Part shown: positions 39,855 through 61,570 of the stretch, one piece after another
How positions within the stretch are numbered: the first letter of the stretch is position 1
How the letters are laid out: every line of letters starts with the position of its first letter
NCBI RefSeq assembly: GCF_006740685.1
Contig: NZ_CP035425.1
Span: forward strand, 1-64,000
Reading direction: 5' to 3'
Source: Candidatus Nitrosopumilus sp. SW
Lineage (GTDB): Archaea; Thermoproteota; Nitrososphaeria; Nitrososphaerales; Nitrosopumilaceae
DNA length: 64,000 nt
Position numbers and translations under genes: made by a program
The notes under the pieces: model-generated
Seen by the model: only the letters and a program-made list of their open reading frames with translations
What the model was told of the DNA's origin: nothing
Database searches by the model: none

Positions 39855-39910
39855 TTAGTCCCTTCTAATTAGTGGTAACTAATTAGCATGACCTAATTAG
39901 TCTGTTCTAA
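39855..39910. promoter_or_regulatory. Four contiguous TTAG-N6-CTAA units (14-bp period)
   Basis: TTAG-TCCCTT-CTAA, TTAG-TGGTAA-CTAA, TTAG-CATGAC-CTAA and TTAG-TCTGTT-CTAA are joined end to end, exactly 56 bp. Junctions create CTAATTAG palindromes at 39865, 39879 and 39893. The six-base centres vary while half-sites are invariant, as expected of protein-binding sites. The array lies between two divergent zinc microprotein genes, 40 bp before the ATG at 39951. Likely an operator for cooperative dimer binding. Confidence 0.75.
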
Positions 39911-39950: not shown

Positions 39951-40124
39951 ATGAAAGATCTTTCTTGTAGGAAATGTGGCGAACAATTACAAGTGTACAA
40001 GAAATGCAGTGTTTGTTTTAAACCAAATCAATTCACATGTGGAAAACTTGGACATACTACTGATGAAGAAATTCATTTGCAATGTTTGATGATGCACATG
40101 GATCATAGAATTCTTTCAAACTAG
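39951..40124 (+). CDS. Zinc-ribbon protein, 57 aa
   Basis: Starts MKDLSCRKCGEQLQVYKKCS. C6-x2-C9 and C19-x2-C22 form a zinc ribbon; a second cluster C30, H35, H42, C45, H49, H52 may bind another metal. It is downstream of the TTAG-N6-CTAA array and so probably regulated by it. Convergent with the gene at 40147. Confidence 0.7.
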   Translation: MKDLSCRKCGEQLQVYKKCSVCFKPNQFTCGKLGHTTDEEIHLQCLMMHMDHRILSN

Positions 40125-57010: not shown

Positions 57011-57027
57011 TTGGATAAATTATCCAA
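57011..57027. promoter_or_regulatory. Perfect 17-bp palindrome in the cbtB divergent promoter
   Basis: TTGGATAA-A-TTATCCAA lies exactly between two TATA-like elements: TTTATAAATA (minus, 57001-57010) for the winged-helix gene and CTTAAATAGA (plus, 57031-57040) for cbtB. A regulator bound here could control both. The cobalt-transport context suggests a metal- or cobalamin-responsive repressor. Confidence 0.7.
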
Positions 57028-57059: not shown

Positions 57060-57275
57060 ATGTCTGAAACAAGGCAAATTAATGTGTCAAAATCACAAGT
57101 ACCAAAATTAGCAATTATTGCATTAGGTATTATCTTTGCAGCAGGATTGTTTGTTGTAGGATTTGATCAAGGACATATTTTCAGTCTAGTTTATGGTGAA
57201 CAAGCATTTACTGATTTGTACATCCATGAGCTTACTCATGATATGAGACATGCCGCAGGCTTTCCATGCCATTAG
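57060..57275 (+). CDS. cbtB: CbtB-like predicted cobalt transporter subunit
   Basis: 71 aa. One TM helix (~17-37), then the family's C-terminal metal motif: LYIHELTHDMRHAAGFPCH, with four His and a Cys. CbtB pairs with CbtA; in bacteria both are often under cobalamin riboswitch control, but no such riboswitch is visible here. CbtA starts 12 bp later. Confidence 0.88.
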   Translation: MSETRQINVSKSQVPKLAIIALGIIFAAGLFVVGFDQGHIFSLVYGEQAFTDLYIHELTHDMRHAAGFPCH

Positions 57276-57287
57276 AGGTTCTTTATC

Positions 57288-58016
57288 ATGAAAACGTCTC
57301 TTTTTATCATAATTGTTTTAATTTCAGGTGCATTTGCTGGACTAATTCATGGTACAGTTAATTTTGCAATTGTTGAACCTTATCTTGATCAAGCAATAGG
57401 TATTGAAAATCAAAACCTCTTTGCATCTGGTGAGGAAGAAGATACTCCTGAATTTTGGGTAGAGTATGAGGGATATCGAACTTGGCAAAAAAGTGGGCAA
57501 ATTCTTGCTGGTGTGATCTTAGGAACTTCTGTTGGAGCGTTATTTGGAATTGTATTTGCATTATCTAGAAATGTGTTGCCTGGAAACAATGATGTCAAAA
57601 AATCATTATTGCTTGCTGGTATCATGTGGCTAACACTATACATCATTCCTTTCTTGAAATACCCTGCAAATCCTCCCACAGTAGGTGATGGTGAAACTGT
57701 TGTTTTAAGAGCGATTTTGTATTTGTCATTTATTGCAATATCTGGATTTGGCGCAGTTGGATTTTATCAATTATCAAAGAAACTAAAAAACAACAAAAAA
57801 CTTGTTGCGTTGATAGGCTATGGCGTTTTTATTTCGGCAGTATTTTTTGCAATGCCAGAAAACCCTGATGAAATAACTGCTCCTATGGATTTGGTCAATG
57901 AGTTTAGATTCATGTCTGTTCTTGGAGTAACCTCATTTTGGGCATCTGTTGGAATTATTCTCGGGTTGTTTTGGAGAAAACTTTCTCCTCAACAAAAAAC
58001 CACTCGCTACAACTAA
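57288..58016 (+). CDS. cbtA: CbtA-like predicted cobalt transporter subunit
   Basis: 242 aa membrane protein with about five TM helices: GAFAGLIHGTVNFAIVEPYL at the start (family hallmark), VILGTSVGALFGIVFALSRN, then LLAGIMWLTLYIIPFLKYPA, ISGFGAVGFYQLSKK and a last helix near 220. Conserved His/Glu/Pro in TM1 may coordinate metal. Thaumarchaeota make cobalamin and need cobalt. Forms an operon with cbtB. Confidence 0.88.
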   Translation: MKTSLFIIIVLISGAFAGLIHGTVNFAIVEPYLDQAIGIENQNLFASGEEEDTPEFWVEYEGYRTWQKSGQILAGVILGTSVGALFGIVFALSRNVLPGNNDVKKSLLLAGIMWLTLYIIPFLKYPANPPTVGDGETVVLRAILYLSFIAISGFGAVGFYQLSKKLKNNKKLVALIGYGVFISAVFFAMPENPDEITAPMDLVNEFRFMSVLGVTSFWASVGIILGLFWRKLSPQQKTTRYN

Positions 58017-58038
58017 TTCTAAATCTATAGAACGAGAA
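58016..58038 (+). promoter_or_regulatory. Left copy of a perfect 23-bp inverted repeat
   Basis: ATTCTAAATCTATAGAACGA plus GAA starts at the last base of the cbtA stop and lies 14 bp upstream of a TTTAAATA box for the HTH gene at 58084. Its exact reverse complement is at 58775-58797. The spacing before TATA suits an activator or repressor site. Confidence 0.8.
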
Positions 58039-58083
58039 CAAAAACATCTCGTTTAAATACATCTTGAATATTTTTGATTTTAA

Positions 58084-58416
58084 ATGTCTAGAAAACTTAC
58101 ATTACCTCAACTAAAAAAATATGATATTACCCAAAAAGTAATTGAGGCATTAGCTGATTCTGAATCTCGTGCAATATTGTTTTCAATTATTAGAAAAGGA
58201 AACACTGCTGCTGAACTCTCAGATAAACTCAAAATTCCTCTTAGTTCTGTATACAAAAAATTGGCTGACCTTGAAGAACTTACACTAATTGAGGTTGAAA
58301 AATGGATGTTATCTGACAAAGGTAGAAAATACAAGGTTTATCGAAGTAGAATTAGTAAAGCAGATATCTCAATAAAGAAACCTGAACCTGTCTTAACATT
58401 ACTTCCAAACAAGTGA
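58084..58416 (+). CDS. Small winged-helix regulator, paralogue 1
   Basis: 110 aa, ArsR/TrmB-like helix-turn-helix: ITQKVIEALADSESRAILFS, IRKGNTAAELSDKLKIPLSS, VYKKLADLEELTLIEVEKWM. The C-terminal tail (YRSRISKADISIKK) is shared with its neighbour. Forms a tandem pair with 58421, 4 bp apart. Flanked by the 23-bp inverted repeat, so autoregulation and control of the phn-type transporter are likely. Confidence 0.82.
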   Translation: MSRKLTLPQLKKYDITQKVIEALADSESRAILFSIIRKGNTAAELSDKLKIPLSSVYKKLADLEELTLIEVEKWMLSDKGRKYKVYRSRISKADISIKKPEPVLTLLPNK

Positions 58417-58420
58417 TTCT

Positions 58421-58771
58421 ATGTCAAAACCAAACATTATACAGTTATCTGAATTTGATATCACTCAAAAAATTATTGAGTCACTAAGTAATGTTTGTAC
58501 AAGAGCGGTATTGTTTTCTGTCAAAAATGAATCCAAAGATGCAACACAGATTGCCGAAGAATTGAAAATTTCACTTTCTACCGTTTACAAAACTCTTTCA
58601 AATCTTGAAGATCTTGCTTTAGCAGAAGTAGACAAATTTGTGATTTCTCCTGAAGGAAAAAAGATCAAACAATACCGTAGTAGAATCGGAAAAGTTGAGA
58701 TAACCGTAGACAATCTTGAGCCTAGTTTGAATCTGTATCCTAACACAGATAATCCTAAATCAAGCCTGTAG
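58421..58771 (+). CDS. Small winged-helix regulator, paralogue 2
   Basis: 116 aa, clearly homologous to 58084 along its length (DITQKIIESLSNVCTRAVLF; ISLSTVYKTLSNLEDLALAE; YRSRIGKVEIT). Differs by a Cys in the first helix (NVCTRAV). A tandem duplication that may now form a heterodimer. Its stop is 3 bp before the right copy of the inverted repeat. Confidence 0.82.
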   Translation: MSKPNIIQLSEFDITQKIIESLSNVCTRAVLFSVKNESKDATQIAEELKISLSTVYKTLSNLEDLALAEVDKFVISPEGKKIKQYRSRIGKVEITVDNLEPSLNLYPNTDNPKSSL

Positions 58772-58774
58772 TTA

Positions 58775-58797
58775 TTCTCGTTCTATAGATTTAGAAT
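58775..58797 (-). promoter_or_regulatory. Right copy of the 23-bp inverted repeat
   Basis: Exact reverse complement of 58016-58038. It is 23 bp upstream of a TTTAAATAAT box (58821-58830) and 60 bp before the phnD ATG, so it occupies the same promoter position in front of the transporter operon, in opposite orientation. Confidence 0.8.
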
Positions 58798-58857
58798 GAT
58801 TCTATGGAATGAAAATTCAGTTTAAATAATTTAGCTCTTCCTAATTTTTCAGTAATC

Positions 58858-59946
58858 ATGAAACAACGAACAACTTTGGCGATTATTGTTGCATTTGCAG
58901 CTATTGGCATGGCAACAATTCCTTTGAGCCAAACAGCACAAGCACAGAGTTCTATTCCTGATTGGATTAAAACAAATGCTGCTTGGTGGGCAGAAGGCGC
59001 TGTAGATGATGCAACTTTTCTTAATGGAATTGAATTCCTAATAGAAAGCGGAATCATCAATGTTTCATCTGATTCAAAACCTGTAGATGTTGATACTCTA
59101 ACAATAGGATTCATTCCAGTTGAAAAGGCTGATGAATTAACTCCAAAAGCACAAGCACTGGAACAATTCCTTGAAAAGAATTTAGGTATCGATGTTGAAG
59201 TAGTTATTCCAACAAACTATGAGACCATAATTGAAGGAATGAGATTTGGTCACATTGATGCTGCCTTTATGGACACTGGACCTGCATGGATTACCCATGA
59301 AAGAACAGGTGCAGAAGCTGTTTTGGCAGAACTTGTTGGAGGTAAAGTAAATTACCAAGCAACAGTTTGGACACTGGCAGAAAATGATTCTCTTCAATCT
59401 ATTGAAGATACTGTTGGCAAAAAAGTTGCATTTACCAGTATGACTGGTTCCTCTGGTTTTGTTAGACCTATGGGAACTTTAGTTACTGAAGGACATGTAA
59501 CAATTGAAGGTGATGATATCGTAGCACTTGAATCTGCATTAGCAAATAGCTTTGAAAGTTATACTTTTGCAGGCGGATACAAAGCAGCATTGACCTTACT
59601 TCTTGAAGGAAAAGTTGATGTTGCATTTGGTTCTGATATTGCACCACAAAAGTATCTTGAATTAGAAGATCAAAAGAAATTACGCCCAGTTACAACTATT
59701 GGTCCAGTACCATCACACGTGTTTATGGTAAGTGCTGACATGTCAGAATCTACCAAAAATGCACTAGTTGACACTCTCATCAAACTAAACTATGATGAGC
59801 ATAATTCAATTTTGACTGACTTGTATGGTGCTGAAGCACTAGTTCCAACTACTACTACGATGCACATAGGCGAATTCGGTGAATTCATCAATGCATTGAC
59901 AGGACTTGATCAGAAGATACTTGACAAATACAACAAGAGCAAATAA
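58858..59946 (+). CDS. phnD: PhnD-like ABC substrate-binding protein
   Basis: 362 aa. Signal peptide ~1-30, then a short domain (SIPDWIKTNAAWWAEGAVDD, FLNGIEFLIESGII) common at the start of thaumarchaeal exported proteins, then a PhnD/phosphate-phosphonate periplasmic-binding fold (TLTIGFIPVEKADEL, DAAFMDTGPAWITHE, FTSMTGSSGFVRPMG, DVAFGSDIAP). Ligand may be phosphonate, phosphite or another oxyanion. First gene of phnDCE. Confidence 0.9.
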   Translation: MKQRTTLAIIVAFAAIGMATIPLSQTAQAQSSIPDWIKTNAAWWAEGAVDDATFLNGIEFLIESGIINVSSDSKPVDVDTLTIGFIPVEKADELTPKAQALEQFLEKNLGIDVEVVIPTNYETIIEGMRFGHIDAAFMDTGPAWITHERTGAEAVLAELVGGKVNYQATVWTLAENDSLQSIEDTVGKKVAFTSMTGSSGFVRPMGTLVTEGHVTIEGDDIVALESALANSFESYTFAGGYKAALTLLLEGKVDVAFGSDIAPQKYLELEDQKKLRPVTTIGPVPSHVFMVSADMSESTKNALVDTLIKLNYDEHNSILTDLYGAEALVPTTTTMHIGEFGEFINALTGLDQKILDKYNKSK

Positions 59947-59964: not shown

Positions 59965-60795
59965 ATGAAACAAATTCAGATGACTGCAAATCCTTCTTTT
60001 TCTTCAATTTCTACAAAGAAAATCATCCAAATGAATGATGTGTGGACATCATATGATTCTAAAAATTTTGCATTAGAAGGAATCAACATGTCTATTGACC
60101 GAGGAACAAACTATGCTATAGTGGGACAATCTGGCTCTGGAAAATCAACTTTACTAAAACTGATGAATGGTATGATGATTCCAAGTAAAGGAATAATCAA
60201 AATTGATTATGTTACCCCTGATATGAATAATAAAAAATTCAAAAAAATGATGCATACAATTGGATACATTCCTCAAAATCTTGGATTGGTAAAAAACAGT
60301 ACTGTTCTTGAAAATATTTTGATTGGTGCATTGCCACGATTAGGCAAAATTCAATCTCTTTTCAAAAAATTCCCAGAACATGAAATTCAAGAAGCTAAAA
60401 AAATAATTTCTCAAGTGGGTCTATCTGGAAAAGAAGATAGAAAAGCCTACATGTTAAGTGGGGGTGAAAAAAGAAGAGTTGCAATTGCCAGAGCATTAAT
60501 GCAGCACCCTACAATACTTCTTGCTGATGAAATTGTTTCAGAATTAGATCATGTAACTGCTCGTGAAATTATGGGTTTGATTGCAGATGCTCAAAAAAGA
60601 ATGAACCTTACTGCCATCATGGTTCATCATGATATGCAACTTGCTTTAGAGTATGCAAATCGTGTTGCAGTAATCAAGGAAGGCCAAAAAATTCTAGAGA
60701 TTGGCGTTGAGGGTAATACTATAGTTGATTTTCAAACTGGTGATATGACTACCGAAGAAATTATGGAGATGTATGCTGATGACGCCAAAAAATAA
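59965..60795 (+). CDS. phnC: PhnC-like ABC transporter ATPase
   Basis: 276 aa. Walker A GQSGSGKS at 54-61, signature LSGGEKRRVAIARAL (LSGGE rather than LSGGQ), Walker B TILLADEIVSELD and the H-loop MVHHDMQLA. Energises uptake with PhnE. Starts 18 bp after phnD and overlaps phnE by 23 bp. Confidence 0.92.
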   Translation: MKQIQMTANPSFSSISTKKIIQMNDVWTSYDSKNFALEGINMSIDRGTNYAIVGQSGSGKSTLLKLMNGMMIPSKGIIKIDYVTPDMNNKKFKKMMHTIGYIPQNLGLVKNSTVLENILIGALPRLGKIQSLFKKFPEHEIQEAKKIISQVGLSGKEDRKAYMLSGGEKRRVAIARALMQHPTILLADEIVSELDHVTAREIMGLIADAQKRMNLTAIMVHHDMQLALEYANRVAVIKEGQKILEIGVEGNTIVDFQTGDMTTEEIMEMYADDAKK

Positions 60796-61570
60796 CATTG
60801 TAATTGGAATTATCATTGCTTTGTTAGTAGTTGCATCCTACAATGTGGATGCAAATCCTGTAGATTTTGTTCAAGGTTTGCCAAATCTTGGAATTATAGT
60901 TGAAGAAATGCTTCTAGTTGAACCAAAGTATATTCCGACTGCTCTTTGGGCAATGTTTGAAACAATTCAGATGGCCTTTATTGGAACAATTGTCGGTGTT
61001 GCAATTGCATTACCACTTAGTATGTTTGCTGCAAGAAATCTTAACAGCAAGTATGTTTATGCTCCAATTCGTGCATTATTGGCAGCAATTCGTACATTCC
61101 CATCAATTTTGTGGGCAATTCTGTTTGTAATTATGGTTGGATTAGGTCCATTTGCAGGAGTTCTTGCAATTATCATGTATACAATAGGCTTTGTTGCAAA
61201 ATTACAATACGAAGCAATAGAAACAATTGATTCTGATCCTATGGATGCTGTTAGTTCAATTGGTGTGTCAAAATGGCAATTAATCCGATATGTTGTAATT
61301 CCTGAATCTGCTTCTCACTTGCTTAGTCAGATGCTTTACATGTTTGATTACAATGTACGTCAAACAAGTATACTTGGTCTAGTTGGTGCTGGAGGAATTG
61401 GATTCTATATTATCAATTATATCAAATTCTTTGAATATGGAAAGGCTGCTGTCTTTATGTTGGTAGTTTTGGCAGCAGTACTAGTAATTGATTGGGTCAG
61501 TGTTAAAATCAGAGATAAATACATCATAAAGTCTCAACACGGAATGGAAGTTACTGCAAAAAGCAATTAA
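60773..61570 (+). CDS. phnE: PhnE-like ABC transporter permease
   Basis: 265 aa with about six TM helices. The binding-protein-dependent transport loop is seen in LQYEAIETIDSDPMDAVSSI and GVSKWQLIRYVVIPE (EAA-type motif). Helices include FIGTIVGVAIALPLSMFAAR and LWAILFVIMVGLGPFAGVLA. Completes the phnDCE transporter; no C-P lyase genes lie in the window. Confidence 0.92.
   Translation: MLMTPKNNIVIGIIIALLVVASYNVDANPVDFVQGLPNLGIIVEEMLLVEPKYIPTALWAMFETIQMAFIGTIVGVAIALPLSMFAARNLNSKYVYAPIRALLAAIRTFPSILWAILFVIMVGLGPFAGVLAIIMYTIGFVAKLQYEAIETIDSDPMDAVSSIGVSKWQLIRYVVIPESASHLLSQMLYMFDYNVRQTSILGLVGAGGIGFYIINYIKFFEYGKAAVFMLVVLAAVLVIDWVSVKIRDKYIIKSQHGMEVTAKSN

Follow-up and report, generated by a model that had tools for sequence, protein, structure and literature searches.

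What does a perfect 23-bp inverted repeat do around a pair of small regulator genes, in front of an operon annotated for phosphonate uptake? In the window, that is, the whole stretch of 64,000 nucleotides analysed here, each of its two arms (58016-58038, ATTCTAAATCTATAGAACGAGAA, and 58775-58797) is the exact reverse complement of the other, with 759 bp from start to start; a sequence-only reading of this DNA had seen in them either a shared operator of the HTH pair or the terminal repeats of a small inserted cassette. The features of the locus are the following:

57060..58016, + strand: cbtB-cbtA, a proposed cobalt transporter; kept upstream in relatives, with a promoter of its own, and not counted among the members of the proposed regulon
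58015..58040, + strand: operator copy 1, 26 bp, holding the arm 58016-58038 (own-genome model match 58016-58039, E=9e-6)
58052..58059, + strand: TATA box of the HTH1-HTH2 operon (TTTAAATA), its position conserved in relatives
58084..58416, + strand: HTH1, a 110-aa winged-helix regulator with orthologues in 188/200 family genomes
58421..58771, + strand: HTH2, a 116-aa winged-helix regulator, 49% identical to HTH1
58773..58798, - strand: operator copy 2, 26 bp, holding the arm 58775-58797 (own-genome model match 58773-58797, E=3e-6)
58803..58816, + strand: half-site-like element TATGGAATGAAAAT, after operator copy 2 and before the TATA box
58821..58829, + strand: TATA box of phnDCE (TTTAAATAA)
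58831..58844, + strand: DtxR/IdeR-like box TTAGCTCTTCCTAA, directly downstream of the phnD TATA box
58858..59946, + strand: phnD-annotated substrate-binding protein (PF12974), without the STS-H phosph(on)ate motif
59965..60795, + strand: phnC-like ABC ATPase
60773..61570, + strand: phnE-like permease

The inverted repeat is two copies of one operator

Between 57500 and 59500 the longest mismatch-free inverted repeat measures 23 bp, whereas 300 order-1 Markov controls (random sequence with the same dinucleotide make-up) averaged 12 bp and did not exceed 18; over the whole 64 kb it is again 23 bp, against 16-21 bp in 10 such controls. The sequence-only reading was thus right that the repeat is perfect and beyond chance, as it was in placing each arm upstream of a TATA box (at 58052 and 58821) and a tandem HTH pair between them, both genes being real open frames and paralogues of each other. 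The 'inverted repeat' is, in fact, two copies of one near-palindromic 26-bp operator in opposite orientation. Its consensus, TATTCTAATTCTATAGAATGAGAATA, taken from a profile of the loci of 40 relatives, is self-complementary at 24 of 26 positions, and the two window copies are likewise identical to each other at 24/26. Four ATTCT/AGAAT boxes can be made out in it, forming two 18-bp dyads, ATTCTA-N6-TAGAAT, that overlap with an offset of 6 bp; this recalls IdeR, where overlapping dyads are occupied by two dimers (PMC8464063).

The placement of the operator is as constant as its structure. Across Nitrosopumilaceae one copy is conserved before HTH1 and one before phnD, the first, which in the window overlaps the cbtA stop codon, 11 nt upstream of the HTH1 TATA box, and the second 22-23 nt upstream of the phnD TATA box (22 nt in the window); the difference between the two spacings is one helical turn. 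Orientation is also fixed, being + at HTH1 in 28/32 cases and - at phnD in 15/15 (p=5e-9). In named genomes the operator scores above 12 bits in 64 of 76 phnD promoters, with some HTH-bearing genomes showing weak phnD sites only; in genera g6 and g9, at three loci without an adjacent HTH2 (L048, L060, L063), a single, weaker dyad is recognisable.

In relatives each copy has diverged on its own, and the perfect 23-bp match is therefore a sign of shared function and not of recent insertion. That the arms are terminal repeats of a mobile cassette carrying two regulators, as had been offered in the alternative, is suggested by a perfect repeat that encloses exactly two genes; it is contradicted by the independent divergence of the copies, by single sites that stand alone, by the fixed spacing to TATA and by the synteny of the HTH pair and both sites across the family, where HTH1 relatives occur in 188/200 genomes and the order cbtB-cbtA-HTH1-HTH2-phnDCE is largely conserved (40 relatives). 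A search for further copies, which the same reading had called for, returned only the two exact ones in the 1,499,620-bp genome, for the 23-mer as for its 19-bp core, the next-best sites carrying 2-3 mismatches; nor does the distribution fit a mobile element, which would show copies elsewhere, empty sites and patchy occurrence. We consider the cassette hardly credible and have rejected it. At 398721 and 951184 the genome has two further sites that match TTCTA-N6-TAGAA but for a few mismatches; they lie in unconvincing promoter context and were treated as chance.

Assignment of the operator to the HTH pair

HTH1 and HTH2 resemble the small winged-helix regulators of archaea in size and HTH domain, and these provide their best profile matches; unlike Lrs14/Sta1 proteins, they form a presumably autoregulated tandem pair and score far under the cutoffs of both curated families (Sta1 28.5 against 80, Lrs14 24.3 against 90). 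The TrmB DNA-binding domain (PF01978) fits better, HTH2 passing with 26.7 against a cutoff of 25.6 and HTH1 falling just under with 25.0; in contrast to TrmB proteins, however, both end after the wing, and the C-terminal effector domain is absent.

The operator shows the pattern of an autoregulatory site: it is dyad-symmetric, lies at the regulator's own and at target promoters, and is conserved in orthologous loci. Together with the fixed TATA distances before HTH1 and phnD, and with its recurrence before FTR1 genes paired with HTH paralogues, this gives good support to the shared operator proposed earlier, and the 26-bp element is best read as the putative shared, autoregulatory operator of HTH1 and HTH2. 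It is unlikely, in our estimate, that the element is a genuine operator read by a different factor. What speaks for another reader is that the assignment to the pair comes from sequence, that sites also precede TFB paralogues and small zinc-ribbon genes, and that some phnD loci (L215, L216, L219) retain a site without adjacent HTH genes; on the other side, the sites track the HTH genes, standing before HTH1, between HTH2 and phnD, and between divergent FTR1 and HTH paralogues.

In a scan of 30 genomes with the operator model the sites before HTH1 and phnD rank first, the window copies with E=3e-6 and 9e-6. A third own-genome site (225291-225316, E=5e-5; 2492-2517 of locus L124, outside the window) lies about 139 bp upstream of a TFB paralogue, and similar TFB-linked sites occur in relatives (genomes G175, G086 and G139; loci L127, L128 and L136), which suggests that the pair may also control a variant of this general transcription factor. 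Strong 26-bp sites were further seen before secreted proteins at L132, L135 and L137, those of L135 and L137 with C-terminal cupredoxin-like segments.

A second element follows the phnD TATA box

The phnD promoters carry, besides the operator, a half-site-like element with a consensus of about TRGAATGAAA and, straight after TATA, a TTAG-N6-CTAA box (TTAGCTnnnCCTAA), the latter in 69/76 promoters of named genomes. At the same loci, the box follows TATA in 22/23 phnD promoters, 3/40 HTH1 promoters and none of 270 promoters of ten other genes; in shuffled controls it does so in 3/4,400. Across 61 genomes, TATA followed by TTAGS-N5-CTAA gives 48 matches against 3 for the reversed pattern, and the 46 assignable occurrences of TATA plus box belong to phnD (18), HTH1 (12), ZIP (11) and FTR1 (5), and to no other gene. 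By itself, the strict pattern TTAGS-N4-SCTAA shows no enrichment in the genome, with 5 matches where the reversed control has 9; only its position relative to TATA is informative.

The single-dimer consensus of IdeR/DtxR is the 14-bp sequence TTAGGNNNNCCTAA (PMC8464063). The window box differs from it by one mismatch, and relatives include exact matches (TTAGGCTTGCCTAA, TTAGGCGTGCCTAA). Two DtxR-family proteins, each with PF01325 and PF02742, are encoded in the genome, and the parallel to DtxR/IdeR iron regulons extends to the targets, which include an iron permease and metal transporters. The system here departs from those regulons in that the 5' half of the box mostly reads TTAGC, not TTAGG, in that upstream of TATA there is an additional and unrelated operator, for two tandem winged-helix proteins, and in that one target bears the annotation of a phosphonate transporter.

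Four tandem TTAG-N6-CTAA boxes with an exact period of 14 bp (39855-39910) were also observed upstream of the TATA box of an ORF for a 57-aa, Cys-rich, zinc-ribbon-like protein (39951-40124), and relatives have two such boxes and a 26-bp HTH site before similar small ORFs. As tandem arrays upstream of TATA thus occur at zinc-ribbon genes too, the motif was dropped as a general marker, and another factor may read these boxes.

FTR1 and ZIP transporters exchange with phnDCE

The regulated slot behind the HTH pair holds different transporters by lineage. In relatives without phnDCE, FTR1 usually follows HTH2, either directly or behind a secreted protein of about 520 aa, while a few (L051, L055, L057) have neither phnDCE nor FTR1 after HTH2. 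The FTR1 proteins are clear members of their family (PF03239, 59.3 bits against a cutoff of 25.3) with the motifs REGLE and REGFE. In the genus, FTR1 is found in 5/5 genomes without this PhnD, against 6/40 with it (p=4e-4). In three genomes (G175, G134, G092) FTR1 stands elsewhere and is divergent from a further HTH paralogue (35-45% identity), the space between the two genes holding an ATTCTA-N6-TAGAAT-like dyad; one relative (G046) has phnDCE with both elements, the 26-bp operator and the box after TATA. The HTH1 of genera g6 and g9 goes together with a ZIP-family transporter, and there the box lies in the promoter of HTH1, so that HTH1 itself would come under the metal signal. The likeness to FTR1/EfeU iron permease loci is thus that FTR1 occupies the same regulated slot, with the same promoter elements, in other genera; the window genome differs in that FTR1 is absent from it and phnDCE takes the slot. 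Since this slot holds phnDCE, FTR1 or ZIP by lineage, the system most likely controls metal uptake.

The secreted protein between HTH2 and FTR1 (L047, 4757-6316; also L056, L071, L082) ends in a C-terminal VPEFG anchor segment and matched no Pfam family; it is possibly an iron-binding partner of FTR1. On the other flank, a palindrome, TTGGATAAATTATCCAA (57011-57027), lies just upstream of the cbtB TATA box, with TTGGAYAAATTRTCCAA-like sequences in 22/36 relatives; it would be a separate putative operator for the proposed cobalt transporter cbtBA.

The binding protein has lost the phosphonate motif

The earlier reading accepted the name phnDCE as it stands, whereas what we find speaks for a metal-uptake regulon. 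PhnD-type proteins hold the oxygens of their ligands through a conserved STS-H motif (PMC5700983). In the window protein, G197-S198-S199 and Y241 replace S-T-S and H, a change that is invariant in 20 orthologues, as are the residues at the aligned pocket positions, Y121, Y166, Y241, D260 and H287, the last at the cap. Ferric-binding proteins such as transferrin use Tyr, Asp and His as their ligands. Among the profile scores, PhnE is above its cutoff, whereas PhnC and PhnD are below theirs, PhnD reaching 102 bits against the 261 of the NCBIfam equivalog TIGR03431. PhnD also weakly matches the Pfam Transferrin family (E=3e-4, 20.4 bits against a cutoff of 20.3) and ovotransferrin (E 0.002-0.008), which is consistent with a metal ligand, but is not proof of it. 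The AlphaFold model of PhnD (20 orthologues) is poor, with a mean pLDDT of 60, so that the pocket argument rests on the sequence alignment. PhnD, with its PF12974 domain and its PhnC and PhnE partners, shares overall fold and operon structure with PhnD/PtxB proteins and PhnCDE transporters (PF12974, TIGR01097), and it retains part of the Ser loop and two pocket tyrosines of the oxyanion binders; it differs from them in the replaced STS-H motif (GSS, Tyr), in its His cap and in control elements common to FTR1 and ZIP.

The operator might belong to the HTH pair and yet serve a phosphorus regulon, for uptake of phosphonate, phosphite or phosphate under P limitation. phnDCE does score as a phosphonate-type ABC transporter, within the limits of the cutoffs just given; published studies treat phnCDE in marine ammonia-oxidizing archaea as phosphonate acquisition (PMC6697440, PMC13018155), and picocyanobacterial PhnD1 is reported to be a likely phosphate transporter (PMC10284923). 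Against this stand the replacement of the transporter by FTR1 or ZIP at the same locus, behind the same promoter boxes, and the loss of STS-H through changes that are all invariant among the 20 orthologues. Phosphorus is in our judgement an improbable cargo, though the strongest of the competing explanations.

A candidate iron regulon with two inputs

The shared promoter boxes, the exchange of transporters and the loss of STS-H lead us to propose an iron-type (metal) uptake regulon with activator and repressor inputs. Dimers of HTH1 and/or HTH2 would bind the 26-bp operator and control their own operon and phnDCE, most likely as activators, given that the operator lies just upstream of BRE/TATA and is helically phased. 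TTAG-N6-CTAA just downstream of the phnD TATA box would be the target of a second factor, most probably one of the genome's two metal-dependent repressors of the DtxR family, which would shut off phnD transcription when metal is plentiful. Since HTH1 contains neither Cys nor His and HTH2 a single Cys, metal sensing is more likely the task of the DtxR protein. We think it probable that the HTH operator and the DtxR-like box together control metal uptake; iron would be the best candidate and PhnDCE the carrier, so that 'phnDCE' is probably a metal (Fe) importer misnamed for phosphonate.

Several observations weigh against a metal regulon. The residue content of HTH1 and HTH2 is unlike that of a metal sensor; the window box is one position off TTAGGNNNNCCTAA, and TTAG-N6-CTAA recurs in tandem at 39855-39910; PhnD retains the PF12974 fold, a partial Ser loop and the two pocket tyrosines of oxyanion binders; the third site in this genome lies before a TFB paralogue, a gene without an obvious link to metals; and FTR1 is present in six PhnD-bearing genomes too, while some phnD sites are weak. 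As to the metal, ZIP proteins carry Zn or Mn too, DtxR-family repressors include Mn sensors, and cbtBA, a proposed cobalt transporter, is a constant upstream neighbour; the same architecture could thus serve manganese, zinc or cobalt. We rate this as unlikely, as the FTR1 family, which takes the place of phnDCE in several genera, is one of iron permeases, and the pocket candidates of PhnD (Tyr, Asp, His) resemble ferric-binding sets.

Marine ammonia-oxidizing archaea need iron. A bolder version of the proposal, which we hold tentatively and with less than even confidence, is that their 'phosphonate' transporter is a ferric ABC importer, evolved from a PhnD-type oxyanion binder toward a transferrin-like Tyr/Asp/His pocket and governed by a dual switch in which a repressor of the DtxR type joins the tandem winged-helix pair; in it Nitrosopumilus would have the dedicated iron importer that has been missing, with FTR1 or ZIP in its place in sister lineages. 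N. maritimus SCM1 has been reported to lack iron-specific (dedicated) transporters (PMC6776035), and counts of phnCDE in metagenomes are used as evidence of archaeal phosphonate use (e.g. PMC13018155); in the open-access papers searched, where absence is weak evidence, no regulator of phnDCE, no such operator or regulon and no DtxR regulon was found described for these archaea. If the regulon is as proposed, the iron route of marine ammonia-oxidizing archaea has been in plain sight, a common annotation is in question and the phosphorus inferences drawn from phnCDE counts need revision; iron uptake in these organisms would also become directly testable, in cultured strains, through this archaeal operator, its two candidate regulators and a list of defined targets. 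A further box, TTAGGATTAGCTAA (367495-367508, locus L121), lies upstream of the TATA box of a SufC-like ATPase gene (Fe-S cluster assembly), which is a possible additional target of the iron box.
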